A stretch of DNA of 64,000 nucleotides from Tilletia caries (lineage: Eukaryota; Basidiomycota; Exobasidiomycetes; Tilletiales; Tilletiaceae). The position numbers and the translations under genes were made by a program. Each line of letters begins with the position of its first letter. The first letter of the stretch is position 1. Positions 1,660 through 61,756 of the stretch are shown here, piece after piece. The notes below the pieces were generated by a model. That model was not told where the DNA came from, did no database searches, and was given only the letters and a program-made list of their open reading frames with translations. Location of the stretch: NCBI GenBank assembly GCA_032718865.1, contig JALUTQ010000033.1, forward strand, positions 124,001 through 188,000. The letters are read 5' to 3'.

Positions 1660-1872
1660 ATGTGCGCAATTATCATCGTCAAGGTCTGCTCTCCCTTCTG
1701 TCGCACCTACATCGACATTTACGCGGACAGAAAACTACCCAGATGCGACTACGAAGACTGCAACAGGACCGTAGAGCGAACGACCGAGGTGGAGGACGTG
1801 GAGGCATGCGATCGTCGTGACAAGGAGAATAACAGTGAGTGGTCGGAACAGATCAATCCTCGCTGTGAGTAG
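1660..1872 (+). CDS. Small Cys-rich protein, diverged member of the MC-CxxC family
   Basis: This 70-aa frame starts Met-Cys like the other family members. Cysteines are at 2, 10, 14, 29, 34 and 50. The usual C11 is Ser, with Cys at 10 instead, and the last pair keeps only its first Cys (ACDRR). The middle (RCDYEDCNRT, then an acidic run) fits the family well. A candidate intron (GTGAGT donor near 1834, acceptor near 1880) could replace the C-terminus, so the 3' end is uncertain. No TATA box is evident; the ATG follows a possible leader-intron acceptor (TTCCAG, about 1650). It is either a divergent working gene or an early pseudogene. Function unknown; metal binding is inferred only from the Cys pattern. 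Confidence 0.55.
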   Translation: MCAIIIVKVCSPFCRTYIDIYADRKLPRCDYEDCNRTVERTTEVEDVEACDRRDKENNSEWSEQINPRCE

Positions 1873-2908
1873 GAGGACAGCACTTGACGAAGCCTTCTTC
1901 TTGCGATCACAGCTACGGAGTGACTATCAGCCAGGTGAAGCGGAGCTGTATCGGTGCTGCAGGCAGCGTAACCTCGCCTCCCCCTGTTTTGCGGGTTTCC
2001 TCCTTGCAGGTCACGTCCCTACCCGACTCGTCCTAAGCTACAACGCCTTGTGGGAGCACAAATACATCCCATCATCACCCTCCACATATCGAAGGACCAG
2101 CAGAGAAGGCCTGTCGAAGTACGCGCTTCGAGCCGTAAGGAAATGATACAACCATGTTGTCACGTCACGTCGGATCTTCACTCTTAAGCCCGGCAGCGGT
2201 CCCATAACTGGTGCGTATGCTCCCAAACGGACATTTGATGTACACCCTTGTTCGCTTCCTTTGGGCGCTTTGATGAAAGCCGAGGGCACACCGTCAAAAC
2301 GACAGTGAATTACGGAGAACTTTCGAGCTCGTTGTAGGTCTGACACCCTTTCCCTTTGTCTTACACCAACCAAAGCAGGTCTTTTGTCGGACGCTTCTCT
2401 TCGATCCACATCTCTTTTCCCTGAGCTCGACTTGCTCAGATACGAGGCCGATCTGCTCCGGCCGCTGTACTGTTTTGAAGCTCGAGTGCTGCCAGCTGAT
2501 GATGTGGCCACTACTTTTCGCCGCAGATACATTGACTTGGGTGAGCGTCCAGCAGCACCGCAGCGGACAAAGGGGACTTATACCTCTGACGCAATACTGA
2601 TCATCTACACAGGATCAATTATCTCGTCGCCACGTCTTCTTCGACCATGATAGCTTACTACGTCTCGAAGCAATCTCTTTTCATCATCATCAAGTCACTG
2701 CCTCGTGGACTTTAATTGCTCAGGTCAGTCAACACCCAGTCCGTTCGTGGGCTTATAAGTAGGAGCCCTTCCGCGTGTCCGCAGAAATGAGCTCCTTCGC
2801 CATTCGTCTTCTCACTGTACTCTCTTCTCCTCCCTGCAATGAACAGGAATCGCCTCAAAAAGACCCACCGCAGGCGACTAGAGCTCTTCCGTCCGCAGAA
2901 GTCCCGCG
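1873..2908. other. No gene recognised; possible leader of the 2909 gene
   Basis: Overlapping short open frames show no domain. A TTATAAG element at about 2753 lies 155 nt before the ATG of the Cys-family gene at 2909 and may be its core promoter. Possible introns are present, but I cannot assign exons. Confidence 0.35.
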
Positions 2909-3088
2909 ATGTGCACTGAATATATCTTCTGGTACATCTGCCCCGTGTGCATGGAAAGGATGCGATCCACGAGACGGCGGACCTCGCCATGCCTTGGAGC
3001 GCCCGAATGCTACGTCACCAAGATTGAGGAGGAGACGATGTCCGTTGATTTTTGCAGAGACTGCGATAGCAGCGAGGAGGACGAGTAG
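2909..3088 (+). CDS. Small Cys-rich zinc-ribbon-like protein (family member, 59 aa)
   Basis: The 59-aa frame has cysteines at 2, 11, 14, 28, 34, 49 and 52: Met-Cys, then CPVC, then C-x5-C, then CRDC, closed by an acidic tail (DSSEEDE). The start is fixed by the family rule that Cys follows the initiator Met with eight residues before the first CxxC. A basic stretch (STRRRT) lies between the first two pairs. There is no signal peptide or membrane segment, so the product is probably cytosolic or nuclear. Paired Cys at fixed spacing suggests one or two structural zinc ions. This is inference; I know no characterised homologue. The longer frame across this DNA in another phase is a shadow. Confidence 0.85.
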   Translation: MCTEYIFWYICPVCMERMRSTRRRTSPCLGAPECYVTKIEEETMSVDFCRDCDSSEEDE

Positions 3089-4316
3089 GCGAACACCGCC
3101 TCGTCGCGTGAAAGCAAAGGTCAGTCAAACGCGATGTCGCTCTTTCACAGTTTACCTGAGAGGACTGATCGCTTTGATGTCTCATTGGTACTCCATTCAG
3201 GACACTCCTTCCAGCGACAGTCGTAGATGTATTCCTCGGCACGACTTTCTCTTCACCTCGCCCCTGGACGCGACCATCTGCTATCGGCTCCTTCATAGCT
3301 ACCACAACAGTCCTGCAATTCATCTCTTCCTTGCACACTTTCTCAATCATACCACAACAGGTACTTGAAACCGGATCCTCCATGACCACTTGAATTAACT
3401 TTCGGCGGAAGATGAGGAATGAGGTAGCATCATCGCCCCTTTCGCCTTCATACCCTCAGCACTAAGACATGATGGAGCGCTTGCCAGCCTTGTCACTGGA
3501 CGCGGACAATGCACTCGCGGAAGACGCGAGCTTATGGGAAAAATGGCGAAGGAGAAGGCGCTGACGGATGCAGGACCTCGATGCGCCTAGTTCGTTCCCA
3601 TCACAGACCTCAATCTTCCTTTCATTGCAGAGCAAGGCCGTGCGATAAACAGCTACTTTGCAAGTCATGAAGTGGCGATTCTCTCGCAAACCAATGAAGG
3701 TCGTTTCGAGAGATGATATACCGCGAAGCTGTGAGACACGTGAAGGTTGGTCCTCGTGCTGCTACGTTGCTGCTGATGTACTGAAAGCGGTTCATCCCGT
3801 TAGGTTGTCTCTCATTGCCAACGCTGCTTCTGCTGTCGTTGCCCCTCCGGAAGTGAAGGGTCGCGGATCTCAATCCCCTGAACGTAGACAGTAACGCGCT
3901 TGATTCTGTTGCTTCTAGTTGATGGTGTCTAGATACATCTGCTCGTACTAACTGAGGAAGGAGTGTGGGCTGAAAAGGGAGGAGAAATGATCATGAATGA
4001 ATGGATAAGGAATGCTGATCATCGATCGACTTTGGCAGAAGGAAGGGAAAGTAAAGCGAAGGAGGGACAACCGAGTGAGCAAGGAGGGTTCTGGAAGCCA
4101 GACCCTACAGGAAGAATGACTCTTCACGCTTCATGAGCTGAATAGGGTAGCGGTAGATGTCAATCTTCCACGCAACCGGCCCGCTGTCGGATACCTCGCT
4201 GGAAATATCGCCTAGCTGCAATGAGGAAAGCTGGTGCTGCTACGAACTATGAGAAGACGACTCAGGTAAAGTTGCGTGATGTGGCGAAGGCATCGGAGGC
4301 AACGGAGTAAGACACG
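3089..4316. other. No gene recognised
   Basis: Only short frames on both strands, none matching a family I know. A minus-strand frame at 3462-3689 contains a few Cys but not the family spacing. Purine-rich DNA near 3950-4100. Confidence 0.35.
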
Positions 4317-5329
4317 CCTTGCTCGCTCAGTGATGTGGCCACGTGTAACGTTTCTAATTGTAACTGGTTCTGGTCTGGATACATGCGCCTATGCACAGCG
4401 TGTGCAGTGAGGGTTGGGTAAGAGCGTTCCCGCTCGCACGTCGATGCAGTCTGACCCGGAGCGTACCCCTCCGCGATAGCTCGCTCGGGAGCAGACTGTC
4501 ACGACGTGCACCCCCCTCAGGCGCTTCAATGCGTGCAGATCGCGGGCCCTGGGGAAAACTTGTGGAGCTCGAGGCGGAAGAAATTGAGGCTGGAGACTGA
4601 CGAAACTTGTGGGTCGAAACCGAAAGGCAGAAAATGAGATTGAAGTCGATCTGACTGGAACGAAACTGGACACCGCATGGCGACATCGTCTTCAGCCGTA
4701 GAACAGGCCGTCGGGCGCAAGGTCGCCAAAGGATGCTGCATGGCGTACGTAGTTGTCGCGGATATAAGTGAGGTAGGCATCGGACTGCCACCCTCCTCTG
4801 GTCCGAATATCCTCCATTGGTTTATTTGCTGCAAAGAAGAGAGTTGCTCCGCCGATACGGAAGCAGTGTCCCGTCACCGGTTCCCGCCCCGCTGCCGAAA
4901 GCCAAGCATTGATGGTCCGCGAGAAGAGACCCTCGGTGAGCTCGTACCGGTTCCCGTTCTCTCCCACGTACGAGAACGCTCCCAGAGCGTCTGCTGACTC
5001 GTCAGCACGCGGTGCATTGAAAGCACGGTGACGTTGCACCGCCTTCACCGGACAAAGATTCGGGAGATTGCGCTGTTCAGAAACGATTCGGTCGAAGCCT
5101 GCGTTTCCGCGCGCCTTCTCAGATGGAAGCGCGAGAATTATCGAAGCCGGACCACCTGGGGATACTGGAGGTTGCTCGATGAGGTGAGCGTAGCGAGCAA
5201 GTCGAGCAAGTGATGGTCACTCGCCACGTCAGTCGTGTCTCTTTCTCATCATTTCTATTCCGCTCTCCTTGCACCTCCACTTCCCTCGCAAGGCTCTGCG
5301 TCCCGCTTACTCCCGCGCAAGACTATCAA
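4317..5329 (-). mobile_element. Deletion derivative of the SINE-flanked tyrosine-recombinase element
   Basis: Three blocks lie in order on the plus strand. 4317-4464 is the 5' (tRNA-like) half of the SINE also seen at 62003-62352. 4465-5183 is the inverted 3' end of the tyrosine-recombinase retroelement present in full at 28-35 kb. 5186-5329 is the 3' half of the SINE. The junction at 4464 (GGAGCG/TACCCCTCCGCG) is the same as at about 35516 in the large copy. Both therefore descend from one composite, and this one has lost gag, RT and most of the recombinase. Confidence 0.8.
4692..5177 (-). pseudogene. Tyrosine recombinase C-terminal fragment
   Basis: The last ~118 codons of the recombinase are open. 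They include the catalytic H-x-x-R (GHCFRIGG) and the region with the catalytic Tyr (YLTYIRDNY), ending at TGA 4692-4694. Upstream codons (APRADESADALG and further) align with 32930-33320 of the large element and stop abruptly at about 5183, where SINE sequence begins. The catalytic Arg of the N-terminal half (MCRPGE in the large copy) is missing, so it cannot act as a recombinase. It shows the uninterrupted sequence at the two sites where MITEs hit the large copy. Confidence 0.85.
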
Positions 5330-5434
5330 TTGCTTGCGATTACGCCGCCTCATTGACGTTCCAGAAGTGAGACAGTTTTGTGAAGCGGTGGACCGCGTTC
5401 AATCAACAGAAAGATGATGTGCGTATTAGGTATC

Positions 5435-5630
5435 GAGGATGAGGATGAGGATGAGGATGAGGATGAGGATGAGGATGAGGATGAGGATGAGGATGAGGAT
5501 GAGGATGAGGATGAGGATGAGGATGAGGATGAGGATGAGGATGAGGATGAGGATGAGGATGAGGATGAGGATGAGGATGAGGATGAGGATGAGGATGAGG
5601 ATGAGGATGAGGATGAGGATGAGGATGAGG
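5435..5630 (+). repeat. (GAGGAT)n hexanucleotide microsatellite, about 33 copies
   Basis: 196 bp of near-perfect GAGGAT/GATGAG repeats. All frames are open and give poly(Asp-Glu), poly(Arg-Met) or, on the other strand, poly-Ser, poly(His-Pro) and poly(Ile-Leu). These frames follow from the repeat and are not evidence of genes. Confidence 0.97.
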
Positions 5631-5876
5631 AAGACAGCTGTGTGCAAAGTGCCAGCCGTGACTCAGAGACGTCAATGAATGAAGATCCACCATGCGCACA
5701 GTAAGCATTTACAACGATGTTTCGAGGCAACGCAGGAGCGCACGGACGACACATTTGCGTGATGATGAAAGGAGAGCCTGCACATCGCTCACGGCAGTGT
5801 TCAAAGGCTGTGAGCTGTCATCGTAGCTGATCCAACAAATCGCATCACTCACCTTCAATGCCGATGCTGACCCGAA

Positions 5877-6086: not shown

Positions 6087-6193
6087 CGAGTCGTTGAATG
6101 GATGGAGCCCGGAATGAAGTTGTGAAATCTGCTGCAGACTGAGAAGTAGATGGTGATATGAAGCGAAAGTAGCAATACATAGGAATTCTGGGT

Positions 6194-6728: not shown

Positions 6729-6914
6729 ATGTGCGTTCGTCTGTACGAGGATCACATCTGCCCAAAATGCAAGAATCCTACAGGGAAAACGGAGACTCTT
6801 CATCGTGAATGCGGCGAACTCGACTGCGAGGAGATCGATACCGAGTTCGAGGATACCATCGACGAGTCGCCTTGCGAGAAGTGTCAGAGCGAGGCGGGTG
6901 ATGATGACGACTGA
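6729..6914 (+). CDS. Small Cys-rich zinc-ribbon-like protein (family member, 61 aa)
   Basis: This is the clearest family example. Cysteines are at 2, 11, 14, 28, 33, 49 and 52 (CPKC, CGELDC, CEKC), with a Glu/Asp-rich linker (EEIDTEFEDTIDE) and a DDDD C-terminus. The Met-Cys start sits about 105 nt after a TATAAA box. The gene is intronless and lies 310 bp upstream of a sister gene at 7224 in the same direction; the two share only about a third of residues apart from the cysteines. No secretion signal. The pattern is consistent with a zinc ribbon, but no catalytic or nucleic-acid-binding motif is visible, so the role is unknown. Confidence 0.92.
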   Translation: MCVRLYEDHICPKCKNPTGKTETLHRECGELDCEEIDTEFEDTIDESPCEKCQSEAGDDDD

Positions 6915-7451: not shown

Positions 7452-7764
7452 TCAAGTAAAGCAAAACCCAGCCACGAGCTCGCAACGACTACGGACTTTA
7501 TGGCTTGTGAGTATTGGCGAAATCTACTTCTTCCCTCACGCATGACTGATGTCTCTGTGCTTCAACTTCAGCGAAGACAATTGGTCTAAAGGTCGGCAGG
7601 TTCACAATCGAACGTGACAAGCGCAAACTCATACGGAGACGTTCGGATCGGTGGAGAGCTCTAGGCTTGCGAAACTGTTCGATATCAAGAGGACCTGCAC
7701 CATCGAGACGAGGGCAGCTCCTGTCGACATATGATTCCTACCTAACTTCTGCTGGCCCCGGTGC

Positions 7765-7911: not shown

Positions 7912-8395
7912 AGCAGGGCCAACATTGTTCTATGTGATTCCGCTTCTTTTACTTCACCTTGCGGCCGCAGAGGGAGGGAAATTTTAGAGAACGAGACGTC
8001 CTACGGGCAGATCGAAGAATCGCTGGGAACGTCTGGGTTTATAGGACAAGGCGATGGCGGTAACTGGACTGGGCAAGATGGAGGGGAGAGGCGGTCAGCC
8101 TGCGGAAGGAAGAATGAAGATGGCTGGAGGAAGGAAGCATTTTTTGAAGGACGACAAATACGTGCTGGAGAGTGATGATTAAACTGTGAAGAAATCTGAC
8201 GGAATACCTCTTCATTTGGAAAGATTTATCTTGCTTGTTGGCTTCCAAGTGAGTCTGCCTTTCACAATTCAAACAAGTCATCCCTAATTCCGATCTTCTA
8301 CGAGACAGTACTATTCAAATATGGTGCAAAGATGGAACGTACGAGCAAAGGAGAACCAGAAAATGAGCCAGCTGAGCGGAGTAACATTGCCCTTG
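7912..8395. other. No gene recognised; downstream flank of the 8396-9947 gene
   Basis: Nothing recognisable on either strand. It contains the 3' flank of the kinase-like gene transcribed leftward. Confidence 0.35.
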
Positions 8396-9947
8396 TCACG
8401 TTCCTCGTGTAGCAGAATGTTTGCTTGTCTTCCGCAGAACGGGAAGCGCAAACAGTCGCAACGTCTTGTGCTGAAAGGCGCTCCTCAATCGGGAGCCAAA
8501 GGACTTGCGGTTGACGGACGGACTGCTGTAGTTATGGCCGACTTGAAGAATCTGGCCGCCATACTCTCGAAGACCATTCTGGAAGTATTGCCGGACGTGC
8601 TCGGCCGCGTTGGCAGCGAAGCTAGCATTCGCGACACAGGTGCAACCGGAGCGGCATAGTCTCGTGTTGGAGCACGGCTGCTCTGTGAGGAACTCCGGCA
8701 TCTTGAAAGCTTCTCCGATGGTCGAGACCCGGCACCCTTCCCAGGAGATGACGCCAGATATGGTCCATTGATGGAAAAATTGGCCCGTCGATGAGGACGC
8801 CCAAGGGTTCCCCGACAGCTGCACGTAGATGTTGCGTGGGTCGAGGCCGGGGTGGAAGAACACGAGCTCCTGCTTGTCCGAGCCTTCACTGTCGCTCGAC
8901 ATCTCGTGCCGGAAGGCCGAAAAGACGGAGGCGGCTTTTTGTGACTCGATGGTAGGCCCTGTTCCTCGAAAAGTGGGACAACTCTTCTTCTTCTTGATCA
9001 GTCGCAACCAGTTGCTGCTCAGCGACGCGGGCACGTCCGAGCGGTCGTGCCGGTCGTAACCAGGGGTTACTGAATCTTGTGCGGGTGCGCGTATATGTGG
9101 GAGAAGAGTTCTGAAGGGAAGTGAAGGCGTAGCACGGGCCTGAATGACTCGATTTCCGAAACCGTCAACGACAGCAGGACCCATCTGTTCTGGAGCAGGC
9201 GTGCAGGCAATGTCGGTGATGAGCTTTGCGAGCTGCCAGGCGATGGAGCTGCGCTCCTGAATCGACATTGTCCAATAGACGCTATCGAGAGCAACGCCAG
9301 GAACGTCGGACGTCATCATCCACGGCCGACCGAGAACGTTGTCTGACGTGCGCTGCCTAAAGAGCAGCTCCGGAACTGGCAGGTATGCGTGTTTGCGAAG
9401 CCGACAGATGACGTTCGAAGCAGGCCGGAGATCGTAGTCGGATCGGCGGGCAATGTGTAGAATTCGTGGTGCGTCAGAGTCGAGACTGATGCGAAACAGG
9501 CGGTATGTGGGACTACCGGGAAGGCACAAGATGCGGACGTTGAGGGAAGGGGGAAGGAGACCGAGATCTTGCAAGCCTCTGATTAGCGCGTCGACTTTTG
9601 GCCGGAAGTAGGCAAACGGCCGTCGCGGTTCCATTTGGGATGTGAAGCCGGAGCGGTCGCTACCGACTTCACTGCCATATTCGAAGCCGACGTGCTGGAA
9701 GGCCTCTTCCTCGTCGCTGCTGGAAAGCGGTGTCTCTGGCCGAGCGCGAGATCTCCGACTTTCAGCGCTCGAGTGTGAGCTTGAAAGCGGTGTCGCGATA
9801 TGGGAGTGGAGCTTCCGAATCTCAGTGCTGCAATACGTGAGTGAAAGTGGCCCATCAGCGCCTTCACGCAACACGGAAACGGCAGTGCCCAGAAGATACG
9901 TACCTGGAGCGGGATCGAGAGGCCTGTGTCGTGTCGTATCGCATCAT
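8396..9947 (-). CDS. APH-fold kinase-like protein, predicted pseudokinase (copy 1)
   Basis: Two exons, 9947-9904 and 9827-8396, joined by an intron with a GTACGT donor and TTGCAG acceptor, give 491 aa. The first 90 residues are disordered with an acidic Ser patch (SSSDEEE). The rest resembles fungal aminoglycoside-phosphotransferase-like enzymes: VPELL and GRPWMMTSDVPG match the N-lobe/hinge, HPGLDPRN (about 340-347) the catalytic loop, and GVISWEG (about 373-379) the metal-binding loop. The family normally has Asp in H-x-D-L-x-P-x-N and in I-D-W-E; here they are Gly and Ser. The paralogue at 21202-22669 has the same changes and the same exon structure, so this is not random decay. A Cys cluster (CRSGCTCVAN) follows. 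ATP-dependent catalysis is doubtful; a binding or scaffold role is inference. Confidence 0.75.
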
Positions 9948-11058
9948 GGACTGATGTGTTGATGAGAAGAGTGAAGGTGACGGTGACGGGGAAGGGAGGA
10001 TGTTGACAAGGGCAGTGGAAGTTGGGATGCAGCAGGAATCCTATCTGAGAAGAAAAGAAATGCAAGGTAAAGTGAGGACACCGTCTCGTTCTGCTGAAGG
10101 GTTGAAGACACAGGACACCATCATCTGTCAAGGAGTAAGAGATGGTGATTCAGAAAACAGACTGGACGCCGAAGTCGTTATCGAGAGCAGGAGTAGATGC
10201 CTTCATCATGACAGTAGCCTTGATTTAATGGGAGTGCCATTTTAGCAAGCCAACAAACATACCTTGCTCCTGATGTAAAACGCACGACTGTCGGAGCAGC
10301 TAGTAGCGTAGAGGCTAACAGCGATAGAGTTTGCTATGGGACTTTGAATAGCGATTTGCACGTGCACCGGAAGTGCGAACGCAGGAATGAAAAGAATGTG
10401 GACTCATCAATGAATTATGTTCCAGCTGTGCCTCGCGGTGCGTGCTGCATCAGATATCAGATATCAGATATCAGAGCAGAGGACGAATAGTGCCCAGCGA
10501 ACGTGGACCCTCTCAAGGGCGACTGGCGGTTAGCGAGCGTAATGTATTCCTGAGAAGGCCGCGTTCATAAAGGCTGTCCGGAGAAGCGATGCTCTAACTC
10601 GGCGCAAGTGTTTCTGAGTCGGGAAGAAGGAGTATTTTCAACGAGTGTTTGGTTAGGAAGAGGATACTATGGATCAGACATACTCCTTGGTGAGGTTGAC
10701 GTTCCGACTTCTTGTTCTTTGTCACTCCATCGCAAAGTTGCACCTCGACACATTACCTGATAAGATGATCTGAAATGCAAGACGTCGGCAGCCTTCAAGC
10801 TTCGAGAAGGGCAAGGAGAAGGAGGACAGGAAGGGAAGATGGGAATACATTATGGAGAGATGGAGGAGTGTTGGCTGAGCGTGTGGTTAACGCCCTCAAC
10901 CTGCTGTGAAGGAAAGCAGAACTGTCGAGCACAGCGAGGCGCGTCCTTTGTAAAAGACCTCTTCAGCCCCTGAAAAACAATCGAACACAAGTCAGAAACC
11001 AACTCCTAGAGGTCAAGTCGCTGCGTCACTCACCTATGCGCTGCAGTTCATCGTGCTT
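9948..11058. other. No gene; contains an orphan copy of a Cys-family promoter region
   Basis: 10698-10762 closely matches 61829-61893, the DNA upstream of the Cys-family gene at 61756, in the same orientation. In 10560-10690, where a gene would be expected, no Met-Cys frame remains. A short ATCAGAT tandem repeat lies near 10452-10477. Otherwise no coding signal. Confidence 0.5.
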
Positions 11059-11232
11059 TCACTCCTTTTTCACGCAATCCTTGCAGGGGTCGTCGTCCTC
11101 CTCGTCGGATATAACTTCCTTCACTCTGTTACAGGCCTCGTCGCCGCACTCCTGGATGCCGTGCTCCCACTTGGTATAAATCTTCTTCCCACAGGAGGGG
11201 CAGATGATTCGTTCGATATATCGTTCACACAT
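11059..11232 (-). CDS. Small Cys-rich zinc-ribbon-like protein (family member, 57 aa)
   Basis: The 57-aa product has cysteines at 2, 11, 14, 29, 34, 50 and 53 (CPSC, CGDEAC, CKDC), a Lys-rich stretch after the first pair, an acidic linker (SDEEDDD) and a basic end (VKKE) instead of an acidic tail. A minus-strand TATA box (GCATAAAAGG, 11343-11334) lies 102-111 nt upstream. Several overlapping frames on the plus strand are shadows. No signal peptide; function unknown. Confidence 0.9.
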   Translation of the reverse strand: MCERYIERIICPSCGKKIYTKWEHGIQECGDEACNRVKEVISDEEDDDPCKDCVKKE

Positions 11233-11333
11233 GGACGTTGGTTAGAGCTATGTGGAACGAAAGCCTTGATAATCGTCTTGAGGAAGGGCGAGATTTTGTT
11301 GACTTTGCCGGTATAGACGCAAGTTAGCCATCT

Positions 11334-11343
11334 CCTTTTATGC
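11334..11343 (-). promoter_or_regulatory. TATA box of the 11059-11232 gene
   Basis: Minus-strand GCATAAAAGG, same spacing to the ATG as before the 5877-6086, 20483 and 25910-26083 genes. Confidence 0.7.
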
Positions 11344-14242
11344 GAAACCTCGTGCATCACTGCAGGACTGAAAATCTCTGCAAGGCATCGGGGAGAGGAT
11401 CAGGATGTGAAATGGTCGAGGGCTTGTTGGATAGTGAGTAGTGAGCAGTGAGAGTTGAGGCGCTGTGGTCGGGAGATTTACTGACATTGCATTGGGTAAC
11501 GAGGATTGTGATGTGATCTGGGCAAGGTCATAGGAACAATGGTAAGAGCAGTCAGCCATCAATCGTGGAGTGCTCATTCTGGCTCACCTCCTTTTGTACC
11601 GCCGCATCGCCACAGCCAAACAATCCGAGGCGCCGCAAGAGGAGCAGGTGATCAGGATTCGAAAGTGATGCAAAGGGAAAGTCGATTATGCAGGGCTGCG
11701 TCAGTGCTGTGCTGCTGTACTTGTCGTGGACAAAATGGGTTGGAGTCAAAGATGAGTAGAGAACATCTGACATCGCGATCGCGAGGGCCCCTTTGTCCTC
11801 GAACAATGCGAGATTCTGCAAATGGCTGAAGGAATGGAGGAGTCATAAAACTTTCGGAACAGTGGTAAATTTTTGGAGGGAGGTTGAAACCGAGAGCTTC
11901 GGATCTGTGCTGCCGCCCAGTTGATTTATGGGAGAGTCACTTGTTTTTCAGCATCGGAAGCAGCGAGTGGTTCTGGGATGGGCCGAATAGTCGTCTTGGT
12001 GTGAGGGCCGATGGGCAGGCATCTCTGCCTCGCTTTTCGATATCTGGGTAGGAGGCAAATGCCACCGAGAGACCACAAATATATGGGAGAGGCAACATGC
12101 TGACGTCGGCCCTGCCATAACACCTGATGCGCCACGATATGTCGAAATTCCGGCAGTCTTCGAACCTGTGGCTGGGCTTCCTCTGGCGACCCGATCTGGT
12201 GGTTGGTGCGCGGCTGAACAAGGTGATGGAGGAGCAGAAGATAGCAGGGCCAGATGATCTGCACGGTCGCATAGTTGATTGATACGGTGCGAGCAGGAAA
12301 CCTAGCCCCGGGACCGGGGCCATCGTGGGACCTGAAATCAGAGACCCGGTGAGACGAATAGCTGCTGGTCCAAACCACCAATTAGAACTCCTTCAGGCGC
12401 TCAGAGATAGGTGGGAGCGAAAGGCGGGACGTCCAAGAGAGCTTGGATTTGAGATGCGATTGGCTTGCTGGCAGACGAAAGCGACGGAAGGACTGTGAGA
12501 GAAAGGACGATTCTCAGATTGAGGTCAATCGAGAACCAGGAGTAGAGGCAGGGAACGAGGAGCTCAGGGTATCTGCGCCACACCGAATTGTTCTCGGAGA
12601 GCACTCCTGCGACGATCTATTGTGATCACACATGATAAAGAGTTGGCGCTCTCAAGCCTCAAGTGCCATTTGTTTGTTGCCAACTTTACCGCAACAAACA
12701 AACGCCACCGAGCGGTTTGAGCATGATGTTGTCGAGAGCGATATCTGCACCTGCTCGCACTGGGATAGAAGACGTCAGTTACCCTTTATCATCGAAAGTC
12801 ACCTTCTGCGCGAAGCGGCCCCGTCACACGGGCGGTGGCTGCTGTTATGACGGGCAGCAGAGACTGACTCTCAAACCGAACAATATACGCACCTTAAAAT
12901 CTTTTCCTGATATTGACTTGCTTCGAAGCAGGCTTTTGTACCACCTATGGGGCTGGGTAGCAGATCTGTCCCTCAAATGCCGTGAGGTGACGGCTGCTTC
13001 CAGGCCATCTCCCCCCCTGCACGCGGTCCTCGTAGCTCCGTTCTCCATACGGTACCCAGGACCTGATTCGATGTGCTGTAAATGCGGGCTGTTTTCAAGG
13101 ATGTATACCGGTGCAGTGCAACAGGCTGTGCCAGCTGCCATTCCAGGTGCAGCTTGGACAGCCTGGACGGGTAAGAACGGAGCCGAGAGGCAGGATAACG
13201 ATCCGAGGACTGCGCTGGCGAGTGAACAGCCTCCGTGTCTGTCGCAGAGTAAATCTGCCGCCCTCGGAAGTGCCGATAAAGTGCTGCTGGATGCGCATAC
13301 AGGGCGGCTGACGCGGACATGAGCGGCCAAAGGTGCGACATCATCGTTGAGGCTGTGGACGGTAGCAGACGAAGCAGCAGAGAGATTGGCATGGCGAGTA
13401 TGGGCGTCGAAGAAAGGCGACAATGTATGTATCGCCAGGTGTCATGCCAGGCGAGGACTAGCAGAGCTGAATGACGCGGGACGCGAGCGCGAGGTACAGG
13501 GACAGGAAACTCCGTCCTTAAGGTGCACTCCGTGGCTGAATGATATGGCTGCGATGCTGTTGGTGCACAGGATCGAGATCCGATGCCCACTGAGCTGCTC
13601 AACGAGCGCCCTTGTACAGCGCTGCGAAGATGAGATGCGCGTGTCGCTTTGAAAGCCGTGTAAGGAGAAAGCCGCTTGATACGGTCGGGATGAAACACCA
13701 GACGAGGTCGAACGACAAGTGCCAGAAGCAGGAACGGTACGGACAGTTGGCCTCAGGTGTGGGCTCTGCGGTCGAAGAGAACCTAGTACCGAGACAGGCG
13801 GTGGCTCGAGAATGAATGGATCTGCTGATGCAGTGACGCGACAGAGTAGGCCCCGCGACATAGTAGGCCCTTCGCGTTGGGCATCGCCGAATATTTTGTG
13901 GGGACAGACATCGAGCTTAAAGCGCAGTGCAGATACTGATGCTGCTCATCGCGGAGTAGAAGCGTCGATGCGATAGGAGTGTGGGCCTTATTCGCGAGAG
14001 CCAGCTGCTCTAAGGCGTCAACGAGCAGCTGTAGGGAGCGCCTGCTGATCTAGGGAGCCGACGAGGTTGCTGCAGGGCTAGTCCTCTTGGTGTAGGACGG
14101 GACACCTGAGCTCGAGCAGAGCGTGGTCGCGGAGGGCTTCTGGAGCAAGCAAGATGGTGGATAAATGCTGAGAACGGCGCTGATAAAGCTGCTGGTGCGC
14201 ATAGTCGGCTTCGCTGGTCGGGTCGTCAAGACAAAAGACTCG
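11344..14242. other. No gene recognised
   Basis: Several frames of 100-240 codons overlap on both strands near 12.0-12.4 and 12.7-13.9 kb, but none shows a family motif and codon content looks random. A short inverted repeat (GTTTGTTGC...GCAACAAAC) lies near 12668-12703. Old repeat sequence is the likeliest content. Confidence 0.35.
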
Positions 14243-15926
14243 CTGTCGCTTCGTCCGATGGCATACAGTGACGATGAGGGCGTATATCGAGCCGATGATG
14301 GAAAGCGTCTTGGACGCACAAGTGCGGTGAGGCCTAGCTGGAAGAGGGAACCATGGTACTGAAGTGCGAGTGTGGATGAAAGAAGCTTGGAAATCCGGGT
14401 GTGGAAAACTGGAAAGGGAAGGAAAGACTTGCGGCGCCGAAGGCTGGAAGCGCTAACCAGCAGCCAGAAGGTCCGAGCGCTGGGTCCGTGGATCTGAGGG
14501 TCCGTGGGTCGGCTGAGAACCTGCATTCAAAAGTGTGGAGAAGGAGAGCAGAAGAGCTGTGTCGGAGGATGTGTCAAGGTGCACTCATGGCTCCAGCGGA
14601 GGCATGACGTGGACAGGCTTCTCAACCAAGAATCTGTCACGGATCAATCAGCCACTGCGATGGTCGGCTGTCCGGCTTCAGGTGCCAGGGATGGGACTGA
14701 AGCTGTCAGAGAATGAATGTCAGCGCGAATGGAGGTTGGCATCAGGAGGAGTGAGGCGGCGTGAGGGCGTGCAAAAGTAGGTATGAGAAAGCGCAAGCTG
14801 AGCGCTTAGCTTGCAACTTGTGCACCAGACCATTGGCACTCCAAGTTCGGGTTCAGGGTTCAACAGAGGCACGACACTAACAGACATCCTCAGGCCCGGG
14901 ATCCCAACAGACATGGGTAGAGGACTCGGCCTTCTTCCTCAGAGACACCTATTTAGCAGATGGGGCAAGTACACACTACTGTGAAGCAAGATCGTTTGGA
15001 GATGGGAACAGAGGAAAGGATGTCAATGGCATGACTGAGCGACGAGTTCGATTCGAGGAGGACAAGTCCGAGTCTGAATTTGATGGAGAGAGAGAAGAGG
15101 GTGTGGATGGCGACCAGTAAGGAAAAAATACCGCCTGACTCAACTCGTTGCGGTGTACATCATACGGTCACACTCGTCTTGAGCATCCCACATAACAAAG
15201 GAAGCTCGCCGACAAAGGCAGCTTCAAGCATACCCTCTGTACAGCTTCAGAGCTTCAGGCTTCAGACCTCATCACTTGCGATAGATGAGCTTATGATGAA
15301 TGAAGAACAGTGGAGAGCAGACGGGAGCATCGACAGCCTGGACAGCATTGAGTATGAACGTTCGACGAGAAGCATAGTCTCGAGCATAGCGTCAACGCAG
15401 CGACTTTCCTTCCTCTGTGATCATGTACGTGCATGTCGCTCGGACGTTGTTCTCAAGGCCGGCAGTCTGTGCAGCGCCAGCTCACATCATCGTAGTGATC
15501 GCGTCGGAGAGGTATTGTATATGGCTATAAGCAAACGGCAAAAGGTCACGGCGTTCCAGACGTTCGTGAAAACACCCAGTCCCGCGCGGCACAGACCCTC
15601 GGCAGCGCAAGCCGCTACCGCAGCATCTATCTGTCTCAGGACAGGCCTCTTAGGAACGAAAATCATTCTAAGCCTCCACTCTCCTCGCTTGCTATCTGGA
15701 CGCTCGGACGGGATGCGGGACCACCAAGCGAGGAAGTTTAGAACGTTTGCGGCTGGAAACGTCCGAGCTGGTGCAGTTTTTAATGAGACGTTCTGTTTTA
15801 CATCACGCAAGGGGTGCGTAGAACGTATATTGTCAATCTGTTTGGTTCGCCTCGCAGGGATGCGTGATTGGTACTTGGGCTGGGAAATCTGTTTTATACA
15901 ACTGATCACTGATCGCGCGATCGCGC
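14243..15926 (+). repeat. Unclassified 1.7-kb interspersed repeat (copy A)
   Basis: This stretch recurs in inverted orientation at 62353-64000 with high identity and a few small indels. A diverged partial copy lies at 19049-19480. The shared 3' edge falls in GATCGCGCGATCGCGCA at about 15910-15926. Apparent frames here, including one of 307 codons from 15080, carry no domain. No LTR, TIR or transposase is recognisable, so it may be a non-autonomous element or a segmental duplication. Confidence 0.75.
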
Positions 15927-16264
15927 ATGACGGTTCAGAAGCGTTTATTGAATCTGCAGTACCCTGGCTGGCATATCTCTTTAATGATTCACCACTTGCA
16001 TGATAGGGCGCCACAAACAGCGGGCAGGTGAATGTCGGCAAACGTTCTCCGCGGGCTCGTCCGCAACGATTGGGTTGATCACGCGAGATAAGGACGACGC
16101 ATAGCTCGTATGGCCTCTCGGCGCAGAGCAGGACTCGGCTCAGTGCAGGAGGGGCGCATCAGGCATCCGGGTAGAGGCTTTTTGGCTGTACTTGGGAACG
16201 TGTTGCGGTGAATTCATCTCTTCCGCTCATCTCTCCAACGCAGTGAAGGAGATCCATGAATGTC

Positions 16265-16326: not shown

Positions 16327-16533
16327 ATGTGTCGCTCTCTCGTGCAGTGGATTGTGTGCGTGAGGTGCGCGGAGCACGCTCAGGGCCATCGAGTTTTTTT
16401 TGAGCCCTGCCCAGACTACCAGGTCTGCGGCGGATCCTTCATCGACCACGACCTGGCCGCCACGGCCCCCCTCTGCTACCAGTGTCAAGAAGAGGAGACG
16501 GGATCCACAGGATCCGACAGCAGCGACGACTAA
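16327..16533 (+). CDS. Small Cys-rich zinc-ribbon-like protein (family member, 68 aa)
   Basis: Cysteines are at 2, 11, 14, 28, 34, 50 and 53 (CVRC, CPDYQVC, CYQC); the product ends in an acidic Ser/Asp tail (DSSDD). The Met-Cys start follows a TATATATA box by about 58 nt. The linker between the second and third pairs is less acidic than usual and ends in hydrophobic residues (AATAPL). A GTGAGT directly after the stop may open an intron in the 3' UTR. No secretion signal; function unknown. Confidence 0.88.
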   Translation: MCRSLVQWIVCVRCAEHAQGHRVFFEPCPDYQVCGGSFIDHDLAATAPLCYQCQEEETGSTGSDSSDD

Positions 16534-21201: not shown

Positions 21202-22669
21202 TCAGGTTTCTTCGGCAACCGAATGGTTCCTTGTCGTCCGCAAAACCGGGAGCGAGTGTTTTTTGGAGATTCGAGATGTCTTGCTCCGGAAGACATGCTT
21301 GATGCGAGAACCAAATGACTTGCGAATTGTGGACCGATCGCTGGTGCTGCTACGATGCTCTATGAGTCCGTCATGGAAGTGTTTCCGGATGTGCGCAGCC
21401 GCGACGGGCGTTAGATCGTCGTTCGCGACACATGTACAGCCCGAGCGGCAAAGGATCGTTTTGGAGCACGGCTGGTCGGTAAGGTACGCCGGTGTCTTGA
21501 ATGCCTCTTCGATGGGCACTACACGGCAGCCATCCCAGGACATGACGCCGGTTATGACCCATTGGCGACGGAGAGGCCCTGTTGATGCTTGCGCCCATTG
21601 ATTCCCGGAGGCCTGGACGTAAACGTTACGAGGGTCGAGGCCGGGGTGAAAGAGGACAGGATCCTGATCATCCGAGCCTTCGCGTCTGCCGAATACCTTG
21701 TGATGGAAAGCCGCAAAGACAGAGGGGGTCGTCTGCGGGCTGAGAGCTCGGCCCGCATCGTGCAGATCAATACTGCGCTTCTTCTTAACCAGCCGCAGCC
21801 AGCTGCTGCTATTGAGCAGCGCCGAAGCATCGGAACGGTCTTGACGAAAAGCTTTTGGGCCGCGTGCTGGTGCGCTCAGATGCGGTAAGGACATGCTTGT
21901 GGGAGGAGGAGGAGATGCTGGAGAGGTCTGGACGACCAAGTTGCCGTAATCGTCTATGACCGTGTGGCCTGTCTCTGCTGGGACTGGAGCACAGGCGATA
22001 TCGGTGATGATCTTGGCGAACTGCCGTGCGATGGAGCTGCGTTCCTGTATGGTCATGATACGGTATACACTGCTGAGCGCGGTGCCAGGAACGAGCGATG
22101 TTATCAACCAAGGCCGACCGACAACGTTAGCCGCCGAACGATGCCTGAGCAGGAGATCCGGTGCCGGTAGGGTCGTGTTCTGGCGCAGCCAACAGATCAT
22201 CCTGGTAGTGTGTCTGATGTCGTACTCTGATCGACGGGCGACGCGGAGCACGTAAGAGGTTTGGACGTCGAGACCGATGCGAAAGTGTCGGTAGGCGGCG
22301 GTGCCTGGGAGGCGGAGAACGTAGACATTGATCGACTGAGGGAGGTGCCCAACATCCTGCAGGCCGCGCACGAGGGCTTCTACCTTTGCCCGGAAATAGG
22401 TGAACGACCGGCGAGGCTCCAGCTGAGCTGTGAGGCCCGAGCTGCTGCTGTCGCCCTCGCAGGTTTCTTCATCTGCGAATTGCTGATACCCCTCCTCCTC
22501 GTCGCTGCTTGATAGGGGGGTCTCTGAGCGTGGGCGGGACACGTCACTCTCGGCGCTGAAAGTGAGGGAGAGATTTCAGCTCTTTGTAGAATCACGGGAA
22601 TCCTAGAGAAAGTGAAGATGCTCACCTGGAATGCGCTCGCGGAGACAGTGTCGGATTGTACTGCATCAT
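21202..22669 (-). CDS. APH-fold kinase-like protein, predicted pseudokinase (copy 2)
   Basis: Exons 22669-22626 and 22555-21202 give 465 aa. Exon 1 is 44 nt, exactly as in the copy at 8396-9947, and the intron sits at the same codon. The N-terminus again has an SSSDEEE patch. APH-like features are LPAPDLL, GRPWLITSLVPG, HPGLDPRN (catalytic loop with Gly for Asp), GVMSWDGC (metal loop with Ser for Asp) and the shared CRSGCTCVAN cluster. Two basic stretches (VKKKRS and the C-terminal KSFGSRIKH) could be nuclear targeting signals, but this is weak. Divergence from copy 1 is substantial, yet length, gene structure and the altered motifs are retained. This argues for a maintained non-catalytic function or an unusual catalytic mechanism. 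Substrate unknown. Confidence 0.75.
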
Positions 22670-41957: not shown

Positions 41958-42003
<46 letters not shown>

Positions 42004-49337: not shown

Positions 49338-49342
49338 CGTAC

Positions 49343-54413: not shown

Positions 54414-54417
54414 AACC

Positions 54418-54886: not shown

Positions 54887-56775
54887 ATGAACACCCCCGA
54901 ATCACCGCGTCCACGACAGACACGAAGTGCACGAAATGAGAAAGACAGCCATACGAGCTCCCTTCAGCTCCGCGTCGGAAGCCTGCTCTGCACAACCACG
55001 TCCTCGCCATTAAGCGCTCTATGGAACATGCCACGGACATCAGCAAAGCAGCAGGTCCTCAAGCAGACGGCGGAGGCCCTCGTCGAGTCCTGCGCCTTGC
55101 GCCGTCGCGTTCAAGATTGGCTCGAGAACAGCAGCATTGGTACCATAACCCCTCCAAGGTCGACATCGGGACTCGACTCCGAGTCGTCTCCTGTCTCCGT
55201 CTCAGTCACCGTCACCAGCAGCAGCGAATGCTCGCTCTCCCTCTCGGCCCTCTCCGGATCCGACTCCGTCGACAGCGATAGCGACGGCGCGCGCTCCAGT
55301 GTCTCGGACATGAGCACCATGACGGACAGTGATGGCTCGACGGCACGGGAGCTTAGGCTCATACGAGACATTATTCAGCAACTGGAGCAGCGTCGCGTCT
55401 TGCTGGAACGGCGGACTCCTCGAAACGCGCCCACTCTCGTGCAGCTGCTGGACAAGTTACGCGACTCAGGGCGTGCGACAGACCTGGCCTACTTTCGCCA
55501 CCTGGTACGCGTCCTCCCTCCCGCATTCGATGCAATCGTCAACCTCATATCGTCGCACGAGGCCTTTAAGGTCAATCCCAAGCGACCTGGAGCATCTGCG
55601 CGGGAGCAAACGGCAGTCGCGCTGTATTGGATGGGACGGTCGGGCAACGGAGGAGGTGTGAGGGATGTTGCCTTCGCATGCGGTTGCTCAGAAGGATCGG
55701 TACATGCGTACACGACACGGGTCATCCTGGCCTTATGCAGCATTCGGTCTCAGGTCTTGTGTTGGGCTAGCGAGGCGGAAAAGTAGGAAGCTCGCGCCTG
55801 GGTGGCGCAACGGTCCGGCTGCACCGCGTTCGCCAATGGATGGTCCATGGTAGATGGGAGCCTCATCCCATTAGCGTACACACCCAGTCGCACTGCGCAT
55901 CCACGAGAATACTTCGATCGCAAGGCACAGTATTCGCTCAACCTCCAAGCCGTGGTTTTGCCGACGACACTCCGCTTTATCGACTACGTCGCGGGATACA
56001 AAGGATCCACTCAGGACTCTCGAGCTTTCGCCGCTAGCGATATCGTCAAGCAGCCTCGAAAGAACTTGGATGAGGGGGGGAATTCGTTTGGACGGACAAC
56101 GGATACGGCCTCTCGGAGTTCACCTGCGGCCCATACGATCACATTGTGGCTGCTAAGTCCCCCGACGTCAAGGCGTACAACAAAGCGGTCAGCGGGGTGC
56201 GAGTCAGGAGCGAGCATGCGTTCGGCTATTTCAAGGGCCGATTCCAATCCATGAAGGGCCTACGAGTGCAGATTCAGGACTCTGAGGATCATCATCGAGC
56301 GGTGCAAATCATTGTGGCTGCAATGGTTGCTCACAACATTGCTCTACGATGGGATGGACCGGCGGAGCGCGACTGTTTCGTGGACCTGAGTGGTGTTTCG
56401 AACCAGGCAAGGAAGGCGTGGCATGAGCTTCAAGAACCTGATGCAGAGACGGAGACGGTGCAAAAGGCGGCTTGGGCTCGAAGGATCAATGCTCAAAGGA
56501 GACACGACCAGAAGGAACGCAAACGAGCAGCCCAACTTTCCCAGTACCGTCTCGACACAGACCGAAAATCGAAGGCAAAGGAGGTGCGAGAGAAGCTTCA
56601 CTCCGTGCTTTTCAACGCCATCGAGCGGCCATTCTTCGACACTACGCCCGAGTCCCGAAAAGCGGACAAGACGGAGAAAGAGTATCTGGAGATGTTGGAG
56701 AAGCGGAGAAACAGACGCAATGCATCGCGGGGACGAGGAAGGGGTCAAAGTGCGCGCTCATCCAGAGGTCGTTGA
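54887..56775 (+). pseudogene. Harbinger DDE transposase (broken)
   Basis: The N-terminal ~260 residues have a Ser/Asp-rich linker and a helix-turn-helix-like region (VRDVAFACGCSEGSVHAYT). The DDE_4-type nuclease follows: VDGSLIPL (first Asp), GSTQDSRAF (second Asp), then SEHAFGYFKGRF (Glu) and a basic C-terminus (RGRGRGQSARSSRGR). An in-frame TAG at 55784-55786 separates the N-terminal region from the nuclease, and a frameshift at a G7 run near 56075-56081 separates the second Asp from the Glu. As read, no complete transposase can be made. Both lesions could be checked as sequencing errors, the G7 run in particular. Confidence 0.88.
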
Positions 56776-56933
56776 TAGTTGATGCTCAGGTTGCAATAGC
56801 ATGACACTTGATTGATAGACATGAATCATTTTGAATTTCAGATTGAGTGGTGGATTGTGAGGGGGGGCTTAGGGCGTTTACATTGGAGCAATGGGCCAAG
56901 GGCAGAGGCAGACTAACGCCTTAGGTCTGGCTC

Positions 56934-58275
56934 TCAGCGACCGGCGAGCTTGGACATGACGGAGTCGAGCTTGACATTAACCGTGGAAAGGAGCGCCAGG
57001 ATATTGTCGATGCGAGACTCAAGGAGCGTAAAGCGGGCGGTCTGAAGCTCCATGTCCCGCTCGCACTGCTTGGACTTCAGCTCCAGTTCCTGCGCTCGTA
57101 CGTCCAGCTTGCGCCGCTTCGTTTGCTCTCGCTCCGCGATAATTGCTGCCCTTTCCTCAGTCGATCGCTGCGTCAGGTCCTCGATCGCGCTGTCGATGAT
57201 GCTGCTTGTGCTGGGTTTGGCGCGACCTTTTTCCTTTGTCGTGGGTCCGGCTCGTCTTGATACCACCTCGACGGGCGCTAGAGGAAGCGCGGCTTGAGGA
57301 TGCGTTGGAGTCGTGGGCACTGACAGCAGACGCACGCATTCCGTCGGACGATGACTGAGCCGCAAGGCGCTCGAGACCAGGCAGAGAAGATCCGGAGCGG
57401 TTCCCTATGCGAGGAGTTTGGAAGGACTGAGAGTCGCGTGCCACAGAAGCGTCGTCGTCATCCAGTTCATCGAAGTTGTCTTCATGTCCGAGAAGTCGGC
57501 GCGCGCGTGAGTATTGCGACAGACCAGCCAGATCGTCGTCATCGTCGTTCGAATCCCCGTTCTCAGATTCGTCCATATCTTCGTCGTCCTCGGCTTCGCC
57601 GCCCTGTGTGTCGATCTCGCCGGCTCCTGTGACGACTATGTCCGGATCAGACGAAGCTCTGTCCTTCATCATTTCGTGCATCAGGTCCCACCACGGCACG
57701 CGCTTGAGAAGGATCTCCCGCTGAGTCTTGACATGGCCGTCCCTCATCTCCGACAGGAGAAGTCCCTTGCCCGTTTCGCTCATCGCTTGTAGCTCGGAGT
57801 TGTACTTCTTGACCAAGCCGGTGATCTTGGCGCGAATCTGGTCGGGATCTTTGGCCTCATCTTCGGCGAAGATCTCCTTCGAAATGGCCCGCAGCATGGT
57901 GTTGCCTTTCATCTTGAGGTTGGCGTCCAGTTTGCTCTTGCTGTGGCCGGGAAGGAAGGAGGTCTGGTAGGCGGGGTTGTCCTTAATCAGCCGAACGAGG
58001 TGTACGGTCTCTTCTACGGTCCATTGTCGATGCGGACGCGCGGAGCCTACTGGACGTTGACGTTTGCCGGTGCCTGCATGCACGAGGCCCGGAGACGAGG
58101 AGTGAACTTGCGACTGGGACATTGAAGTCGAGGTGGATTGAGAATGAGCAGGGCCCGTCGATTGCGAAGAGTCTAGCTCGATCGGATTGGCCAGGGAGCT
58201 GCCAATGCCCCCTGCCGAGTAGACCATGATCGAATCGTGCTTTGGATGGGCTGACGGGCAGGAAACGAGACTCAA
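56934..58275 (-). pseudogene. Harbinger accessory DNA-binding protein (Myb/SANT-like), frameshifted
   Basis: From ATG 58275, or more likely 58227 (MVYSAGGIGSS), the frame has a Ser-rich N-terminus and then a SANT/Myb-like helical domain at about 85-200 (HRQWTVEETVHLVRLIKDN, RVPWWDLMHEMMK) and a long acidic stretch. Near 57235 (an A5 run) coding potential shifts to another phase that ends in a coiled-coil (RAAIIAEREQTKRRKLDV to VMSKLAGR, stop 56934-56936). PIF/Harbinger elements need such a protein to bring the transposase to DNA in the nucleus. The shift is either a mutation or a homopolymer read error. Confidence 0.75.
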
Positions 58276-58794
58276 GAGGCGTCTAGCTGTGAAGATGCAA
58301 GAGAAACAGGGGAATGAGAGGTAACTGTAGAGGCTTGAGAAGAGGAGGTATTGAACTCACTGTGATTCTTGGACGTTGCCTTCTTATCGTGCACCTGCTG
58401 GACGCGCACCCCGAGGAAGCGAAGATCTTGACCGACGTCGACGATCGTCGAAGGAACCAGAAGAGTATGTTGGAAGCTGATAGAATGTCATGGATGCAGG
58501 AAGAAGATGAGGAAGATGGACGCGGTGCAGCCGGTTGACGTGAAGTACGATGAAGATGAAGTGTGCCAAAATGGCGGTCCGATCAGCGTTTGGCACACAC
58601 GACAAACTTGACGTACTCAATTAGGGGAGACGCCGAAACGCCGACAAAGACCTCATCTCCCACGATATCTCCGAAGTACGTTTTCGTACTTCATTTTCTC
58701 GCGAAACCCCCTAATAAAATTTTCTTCGCTCTCCTTGCTTCCTCCACTTTCTCTCAAGGCTCAGCATTCCGCTTGCGTGCGCAGAACTAACAAG

Positions 58795-59296: not shown

Positions 59297-59560
59297 GTTG
59301 TGGGGCTTCGTCGAGGCGCAACGTGTGAGTGATGGCCAAGGGCGAAAGTTGAGGATGAGACGCCAGGCTAACCGTGCTCTGGAAGATCCTCCAGCTTTTT
59401 GAAGACTTCGCTACTTCGACAAGCCTGGAGGCATCCTGGTGGCGATCGTCGGACAAGGTGCGGAGCGAGGGAAGAAGCGCAACGGACGCCATTGGTCAGA
59501 AGCGTGTCGTCGATCAAAGCATTCGAGTTCGTCCCGAAAACGGCTTCCACTCACAGCAGG

Positions 59561-60778: not shown

Positions 60779-61300
60779 CATCGCCTGGCTAGGCGCGACG
60801 GCCATTCCAGCTTCGGATCTGGACGGACGCAAGCTTGCCGATTTCCATGGTGTCGGTGAATCGCATCAGAACGTAGAAGACGGACGGTTGTAAAGCTGAA
60901 GATGAAGCAAGGGACGTTCTGGAAGACAGAGGGACATCGTCCCTGAGAACGGCGCGGCCAACGCTGATGCTGCGAGGCTCGCTTCGGTGATCGACAAAAC
61001 TGTGGATATGGCCGAGAAGCTGTTCGGACCGGACGACTTCGAGGAAGATTCAGGGAGGACTGCAACCACTCTCAAGGCTCGCTCACCCCTCTCTCCATCT
61101 CAGACGCCGATGTCGATGTCAGTGTCAGACACTGCCTCGTTCGAGTTCAACCTGCAGCATCCTTTCCATCTTGGCTGATCAGGAGCCTCCATGGCGGCCC
61201 TCGAGGTTGACTTGACACCGACCTGGGCGAGCTGATGCCTGTCCAGCGAAGGAGCCTCTGCCAGCACGCTCGGCTCCATCCTGCAGCATGGCTTCGACCA
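60779..61300 (+). pseudogene. Partial duplicate of the 43961-48290 gene
   Basis: It aligns with about 46915-47405 of the large gene: IPASDLDGRKL, ARLASVIDKTVDMAEKLFG, then FEFNLQHPFHLG and ALEVDLTPTWAS. It is broken by an early TAA at about 60891, a phase change, TGA after HLG where the gene has Cys, and a further TGA at about 61231. A small insertion adds residues in LSPSQTPMSMSVSD. Both ends are lost. Confidence 0.88.
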
Positions 61301-61579
61301 CGGTCAACACCTCCAATACTACGGTCTGCTCACAAGTCTCAATCGCGTTCACCTGTACGAAGACAAACTTGTTCGTCGATCGATTGCGGGTTGATCGGCA
61401 GGTAGTCGGGTGTCACTGCCACAAACATGGTCCTTGTCAGGGATGAGGTGGCTGGGTAACTTCTCTTTTGACGGGAAAAGATGGGACCTTAGAGAAGGCA
61501 AATGATCAGTCAGGAACTTGACATTAACCAACGCTACAGGAAGCGATACTTACCGATGACGGGTCCCACTCGTAGCAAA
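61301..61579. other. No gene recognised
   Basis: Short flank between the pseudogene and the next Cys-family gene; nothing seen. Confidence 0.35.
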
Positions 61580-61756
61580 TCATCGATTCTTGCAGGCCGA
61601 ACATAATTCTCCGTTGTTGTCGACCCTGTGATACGTTTTGCGCATGCCGGGGCAATCTTCATCGTCCTCATCGCACAGCTCAGGCTCCGAGCTCCACTTG
61701 TAGAGGTAGCGTTTGCACATATTGCAGTGAACTTCGAGGATCTGTAGATGGCACAT
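61580..61756 (-). CDS. Small Cys-rich zinc-ribbon-like protein (family member, 58 aa)
   Basis: Cysteines are at 2, 11, 14, 28, 35, 52 and 55 (CNMC, CDEDDEDC, CSAC), ending KNR. Closest relative is the gene at 59761. A TATA-like AATAAAAGG lies 84-93 nt upstream on the same strand (61849-61840). The upstream block 61829-61893 recurs at 10698-10762 without a gene. A further in-frame ATG at 61825 is discounted by the Met-Cys rule. No signal peptide; function unknown. Confidence 0.88.
   Translation of the reverse strand: MCHLQILEVHCNMCKRYLYKWSSEPELCDEDDEDCPGMRKTYHRVDNNGELCSACKNR

Follow-up and report, generated by a model that had tools for sequence, protein, structure and literature searches.

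Among the described systems closest to the genes considered here are the conotoxins and the hnwd allorecognition genes of Podospora, whose products are of the NLR type. In the conotoxins (PMC3823881), fixed cysteines are combined with hypervariable loops between them and with gene duplication. For hnwd, PMC2873952 describes exchange between loci together with diversification of genes for WD-repeat proteins. Here, we analyze a family of genes for small proteins beginning Met-Cys, found in a 64-kb stretch of the Tilletia caries genome (the window; positions 124001 to 188000 of contig C28, in a genome of 38.1 Mb and 40 contigs, which are given C numbers throughout). The family is like the conotoxins in its fixed Cys, variable loops, and duplication and like hnwd in its exchange and diversification, while it is unrelated to hnwd in sequence. 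Conotoxins, in contrast, are secreted with a leader and form disulfides, whereas the Tilletia proteins have no leader, carry CxxC knuckles, and probably bind metal. By analogy, the evolution of the family resembles that of both systems, without membership in either.

A family built on seven cysteines

The eleven genes that a preliminary description of the window had named as intact were all recovered as open reading frames (ORFs) at the positions and on the strands given there (Table 1). The copy at 1660, described as diverged, is an open but degenerate relative, in which the first CxxC has become CxxxC and the last Cys is gone. Within the window, the framework consists of Met-Cys, 8 residues, CxxC, 12 to 14 residues, Cys, 4 to 6 residues, Cys, 14 to 20 residues, and CxxC. 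The seven invariant Cys of these cores (52 to 59 residues) accordingly fall at positions 2, 11, 14, 27 to 29, 32 to 35, 49 to 56, and 52 to 59 in 11/11 members, as had been proposed, with the Met-Cys start and exactly eight residues before the first CxxC likewise in 11/11. Mean column identity of the core alignment is 31%, whether it includes the 1660 copy or, in its place, the Tilletia indica protein discussed below. Core net charge is negative in all eleven. Of the acidic linker and tail considered usual in the preliminary description, the tail proved not to be general: tails with at least five Asp/Glu (D/E) residues occur in 5/11 window members, and those of 11059, 20483, 59561, and 61580 are short, with at most one D/E. 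Site-specific Cys codon bias of the conotoxin type is not claimed, as TGC and TGT are both used at all seven positions.

The family extends past the window and over several contigs, which had escaped the preliminary description. Genome protein searches and fetched stretches supplied 30 intact readable members: 18 on C28 (67 to 196 kb), 9 on C1 (2.016 to 2.256 Mb, near one end of the 2.309-Mb contig), and 3 on C3 (near 105 to 110 kb of a 2.164-Mb contig), the last being longer (99 to 193 amino acids [aa]). All seven Cys are kept in 30/30, a count to be read with the motif having been part of finding the members. The Met-Cys start holds in 29/30; C1:2177251 begins Met-Pro-Cys. A profile hidden Markov model (HMM) built from the 30 cores and scanned over six frames of C28:64001-227400 retrieved 18 intact members (E ≤ 1.5e-11), which had also trained it, and two degenerate copies, C28:66431 and window 1660 (E = 1.1e-6 and 6.9e-6), compared with a best E of 0.2 in the reversed control. 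The same six-frame scan placed no member in C28:196-227.4 kb. At C28:195746, the fourth and fifth Cys correspond to Cys28 and Cys33 in the HMM alignment, and a spacing of 8 between the third and fourth Cys is a script artifact. Relatives of the 11059 gene lie at C28:74258, 85203, and 190977. Those of the 16327 gene lie at C28:116391 and at further places that were located with their sequence unread: C28:55323, C25:1070629, 1240674, and 1242684, and a partial copy at C21:1091984. Two weak places, also unread, are C28:3490 (E = 0.07) and C7:1385928 (E = 0.03, one internal stop). In the minor part of the genome that was read, the arrays (C28 and C1) sit toward contig ends.

The short pattern MC-x8-C matched 1,066 places genome-wide, compared with 677 for the reversed pattern. 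This control differs in composition; therefore, the excess is no estimate of family size, and the matches were not used as a member count. Among the matches listed, the full motif was present in 0/30 places with sequence (C1 up to 0.82 Mb), and 39 of the 56 other listed places had no stop in the 33 nt checked for each, some rows, repeats included, having been set aside before this count. Interior members may therefore exist on C1 and C3. The three longer C3 members occupy C3:104.5-109.9 kb, two of them with similar tail ends (..LHSAQYW and ..LRSARYWE). Another frame of this kin, at C3:108014-108400, aligns with the C3 member of 193 aa from residue 12 on only.

The sole outside relative found in 5.8 billion proteins is the Tilletia indica hypothetical protein CF326_g3565 (P0001), which is 61% identical to the product of the 7224 gene and shares its full framework and acidic tail. 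Unnamed and uncharacterized, it is a family member and not an explanation of the family. No further protein relatives were retrieved (64, 594, and 7,994 candidates; shared five-residue words were required, so distant or unannotated ones could escape) beyond P0001 and the window's own P0002, an 81-aa form of the 61580 gene begun at an upstream in-frame ATG. The description of the family as apparently undescribed holds for named families, while one annotated hypothetical protein belongs to it. The literature searched, mostly listings, contained no description of the family, and the word "cysteine" occurs 0 times in the main texts of PMC10684912 and PMC9172201.

Several observations argue for real genes. 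Against 11 real occurrences, the strict motif was absent from all 60 sequences simulated from the window under an order-2 Markov model. The genes had been called intronless, which is correct for the coding part; after the stop, however, a splice-donor-like word (GTGAGT, GTAAGT, or GTACGT within 65 nt) is present in 22/30 members versus 4.8% of random stretches, and donor, branch point, and acceptor are within reach in 14/30 versus 4.0%. Members share ancestry, so such counts are nonindependent events; they span C28 and C1, and the three C3 members have no donor word after the stop. An intron in the 3' untranslated region (UTR) is likely, judging from these words. In codon models, a subfamily of three C1 copies and C28:67764 (set C) has a ratio of nonsynonymous to synonymous rates (omega) of 0.22, and two of its copies differ by 5 synonymous versus 1 nonsynonymous change, which indicates that the subfamily is under purifying selection. 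With the recurrent donor words and this subfamily, the family ORFs look like selected, probably spliced genes. Spurious ORFs are ruled out by the Markov simulations, the HMM scan, and the omega of set C.

Divergent cores in similar surroundings

The divergence valleys described here, like the purifying subfamily and the post-stop donor word, are new relative to the preliminary description. Among 10 pairs examined (chosen by us and sharing members; p values are uncorrected), 6, recent duplicates among them, have flanks more alike than the gene core. These six show the conotoxin-like pattern of kept Cys, diverging loops, and flanks exceeding loops in likeness, which is absent from the conserved subfamily. 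C28:74258 and 85203, for example, sit in a shared, sharply delimited segment of some 0.6 kb, in which the flanks differ at 5/430 nt and the core at 26/153 nt (Fisher, 7e-12). The core differences comprise 22 nonsynonymous and 4 synonymous changes and leave the seven Cys codons untouched. Adenine-directed (retroelement-type) mutagenesis is not supported, as the changes involve all base pairs.

Another valley lies within a 7.7-kb segmental duplication in inverted orientation (Table 1). The two arms are mostly 90 to 100% identical per 100 nt, but on either side of gene 11059 and its partner identity declines through roughly 1 kb, reaching 64% at the genes themselves; elsewhere in the block, no 100-nt bin is below 79% except the one at the very edge, at 60%. 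An APH-like kinase gene in the same duplication (copy at C28:192833-194026, 94% identical) provides an internal control for its age, with 0.053 synonymous (dS) and 0.030 nonsynonymous (dN) substitutions per site. For the mini-gene, dS is 0.473 and dN is 0.448, with 41% amino acid identity. On C1, genes 2035724 and 2047910 are identical at 334/334 nt in positions -600 to -250 and 97 to 100% identical from about +520 to +720, and 45% of their core sites differ (41% in another alignment). Conversely, 2047910 and 2162506 differ by 4.5% in the core and by 17% in the flank at -600 to -250. Identical flanks around unlike cores and like cores in unlike flanks imply separate histories of core and flank, and the C1 mosaics point to gene conversion or cassette exchange.

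Codon models suggest diversifying selection on the cores. Omega is 1.05 in four C28 genes (set A), with 36% of sites in a class with omega near 3, and 0.85 in six C1 genes (set B), with 27% of sites in such a class; in both sets, Cys sites have a near-zero posterior of belonging to it. The Cys are thus kept even where overall omega is near 1, and the pattern named beforehand as contradicting the proposal, a dN/dS near 1 that takes in the Cys codons, is not seen. Selection on a metal-binding core under rapid divergence, as proposed in the preliminary description, agrees with the fixed Cys and the fast change elsewhere.

Several points count against these results. The pattern of divergent cores is absent from 4 of the 10 chosen pairs, two of which belong to set C; the M1a/M2a likelihood-ratio p values are 0.066 (set A) and 0.118 (set B); and assembly error may lie behind the inverted pairs, although each pair has both arms on one contig and so does not represent two haplotypes assembled apart. 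A pattern driven by mutation or conversion and free of selection for difference, with old cores too diverged to exchange or with local hypermutation, would account for three further observations: core dS is also raised (0.47 versus 0.05), the omega of set A is close to 1, and 20 of one pair's 26 core changes are transversions, with 8 of the 26 adjoining another change. We nevertheless consider this explanation unlikely, as the seven Cys persist in every intact member (with the reservation on motif-based finding made above), the set C subfamily has cores more alike than flanks, and the valleys seen center on the coding core. The raised core dS does mean that exchange, old cores, or local mutation must also act. 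In this respect, the valleys offer a testable case of gene conversion and selection acting jointly at the kilobase scale.

All copies of the APH-like kinase found in the genome search (three and a fragment at 40817-40963) are on C28 within the mini-protein array. Dispersed repeats of about 150 bp, of two kinds by position, occur at window 4316-4464, 5186-5334, 27891-28000 (clipped by the query edge), 61998-62147, and 62205-62353 and are 98 to 100% identical to copies at C28:194174-194530. Those at C28:186205-186353 and 194174-194325 adjoin both ends of the duplication arm at 186 to 194 kb, and the repeats are possible mediators of the 7.7-kb duplication.

Predicted fold and possible function

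No named domain was recognized, a match to which would have spoken against a new family. Searches of 12 members gave no significant match in Pfam-A (best E = 0.0071) or NCBIfam (best E = 0.051); in both, cutoffs were compared for the first member only, with the others judged by E. For seven further proteins, the best Pfam-A match had an E of 0.0028 and 17.8 bits versus a cutoff of 24.8. The subthreshold Pfam-A matches included several zinc ribbons (YjdM, LITAF-like, Zn_ribbon_3, and others) with similar CxxC pairs, and acidic tails are present on six C1 members; both would suit small zinc-ribbon-like regulators of transcription or RNA duplicated by chance. We regard such regulators as improbable because no ribbon model recurs (each matched 1/12 members), the spacing and the seventh Cys differ, and the rapid divergence is unlike that of core regulators. 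The only match below an E of 0.001 in a PDB profile search (E = 4.3e-4) spanned 15 residues in a zinc pocket resembling that of HVO_2753 and was set aside as a generic zinc knuckle.

AlphaFold models of two members (models 1 and 2; Table 1) share a beta-beta-beta-helix order, although the same 12 sequences lie behind both and the models are thus nonindependent. Foldseek retrieved 101 PDB and 159 BFVD matches for model 1 at E ≤ 10, none of them at E ≤ 0.001; model 2 was compared by VIA structure comparison only, and structural families that did not appear were not treated as excluded. In the VIA comparison, PerR residues 90 to 144/145 rank first for both models, in a match that is weak and tied. 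This segment belongs to the Zn(Cys)4 dimerization region of PerR/Fur (2fe3, 2rgv, and 9ire), and the ends of the matched ranges place C11, C14, C49/50, and C52/53 on PerR C96, C99, C136, and C139. These are the zinc site residues in the numbering given in PMC8063818. The N-terminal DNA-binding domain of Fur/PerR is absent, as the window members (55 to 75 aa) comprise the Cys core and tail only. We infer zinc binding, to which the models lend weak structural support.

A possible arrangement is a chain folding as strand-knuckle-strand-loop-strand-knuckle-helix, in which a single zinc would be bound between the two CxxC pairs (C11, C14, C49, and C52) at one sheet end. At the opposite end, C2, C28, and C33 could meet in a three-Cys site. 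Removal of Met from Met-Cys would free the N-terminal amine as a possible fourth ligand, and the fixed place of Cys at position 2 would then be accounted for. Such a metal core would allow the fold to tolerate surface change. Duplication would supply copies, gene conversion would keep flanks alike and move cores between loci, and selection would keep the cores different. A simple buffering function of the metallothionein type might be read from proteins that are small, Cys rich, and multicopy; it is highly improbable, as there are just 7 framework Cys in cores of 52 to 62 residues and the AlphaFold models are ordered, whereas metallothioneins combine very high Cys content with little fold.

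We therefore favor, at about even chances, a true and fast-expanding family of small, cytosolic, zinc-stabilized modules with diversified surfaces and a role in recognition or conflict. The most likely use would be protein-protein recognition in allorecognition, in defense against selfish or viral elements, or toward the host; an internal role is rated slightly above a host-facing one, with no firm choice between them. Effector families typically form arrays at contig ends, duplicate, and diversify, and the sole public relative found comes from a wheat bunt fungus. The proteins could thus be leaderless effectors that exit the fungus unconventionally and act in the plant, with surfaces driven by host recognition. 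In line with the earlier claim that signal peptides are lacking, a hydropathy scan found no signal-peptide-like hydrophobic N terminus in 29/30 members, so that the hallmark of classical secreted small Cys-rich effectors is missing; the exception, C3:106397, has a 10-residue apolar run (by hydropathy scan only, with no signal predictor). Tilletia secreted effectors such as TcSCP_9014 (PMC11174917) are also small and Cys rich but secreted, a distinction drawn by description and not by sequence comparison. The CxxC knuckles and long D/E tails would also fit a reducing interior better than disulfides, and export to the plant appears somewhat unlikely. Were it true, effector lists that demand a signal peptide would miss a whole class.

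In either case, annotation seems to have missed a sizeable family in fungi of economic importance, owing to the very small size of the genes. Some of its members bear a clear sign of conflict-driven evolution in recent duplicates with matching surroundings and unlike cores. If the recognition reading is correct, smut-like fungi would possess an undescribed recognition layer. The further proposal that these N-terminal-Cys zinc mini-proteins form a cytosolic repertoire of bunt fungi, an immune or allorecognition system of a categorically new kind that gains specificities by core duplication and exchange between homogenized flanks, is quite unlikely.

Other features of the window

The coordinates of family members and associated features are collected in Table 1.

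Table 1. Mini-protein genes and associated features, in window coordinates
Feature	Position	Strand	Basis or remark
Degenerate member, 70-aa open frame	1660..1872	+	Sequence, motif, HMM
Intact member, 59 aa	2909..3088	+	ORF check, motif, HMM
Intact member, 69 aa	5877..6086	-	ORF check, motif, HMM
Intact member, 61 aa; AlphaFold model 1 (pLDDT 83)	6729..6914	+	ORF check, motif, HMM, model
Intact member, 75 aa, acidic tail; match to Tilletia indica P0001	7224..7451	+	ORF check, protein search, HMM
Putative 3' UTR intron of 7224	7507..7571	+	Coordinates derived from offsets
Inverted segmental duplication, 7.7 kb, one arm (C28:132250-139927)	8250..15927		Identity scan; other arm C28:186354-194175
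APH-like kinase (Pfam APH 21.5 bits, cutoff 23.2)	8396..9634	-	Inside duplication
Putative 3' UTR intron of 11059 (GTGAGT..CTGAC..CAG)	10970..11033	-	Coordinates derived from offsets
Intact member, 57 aa; bottom of divergence valley in 7.7-kb duplication	11059..11232	-	ORF check, duplication comparison
Intact member, 68 aa; AlphaFold model 2 (pLDDT 76)	16327..16533	+	ORF check, genome protein search, model
Intact member, 55 aa	20483..20650	+	ORF check, HMM
ORF with second APH-like kinase (match 21211-22422; identity to first, 55%)	21202..22575	-	Domain and genome search
Intact member, 57 aa	25910..26083	-	ORF check, HMM
Intact member, 56 aa	59126..59296	+	ORF check, HMM
Putative 3' UTR intron of 59126	59325..59394	+	Coordinates derived from offsets
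Intact member, 66 aa	59561..59761	-	ORF check, HMM
Intact member, 58 aa	61580..61756	-	ORF check, protein search, HMM
Window part of other duplication arm	62354..64000		Identity scan

At 5435-5631, the window also carries a (GAGGAT)n repeat, 32.8 perfect copies long, in which several frames stay open, and elsewhere several putative mobile elements. Ty1/copia-type retroelement ORFs occupy 49668-54431, with integrase, Pol_BBD, and SH3-like domains in 51723-53315. The ORFs at 28390-33573 include a reverse transcriptase domain (30712-31326) and an ORF judged tyrosine-recombinase-like by eye (32509-33573; no Pfam match), and they possibly constitute a DIRS-type element. Finally, at 56074-58356, a DDE_Tnp_4 ORF stands beside an opposite-strand Myb/SANT-like ORF (Myb/SANT below cutoff), possibly a Harbinger-like pair.

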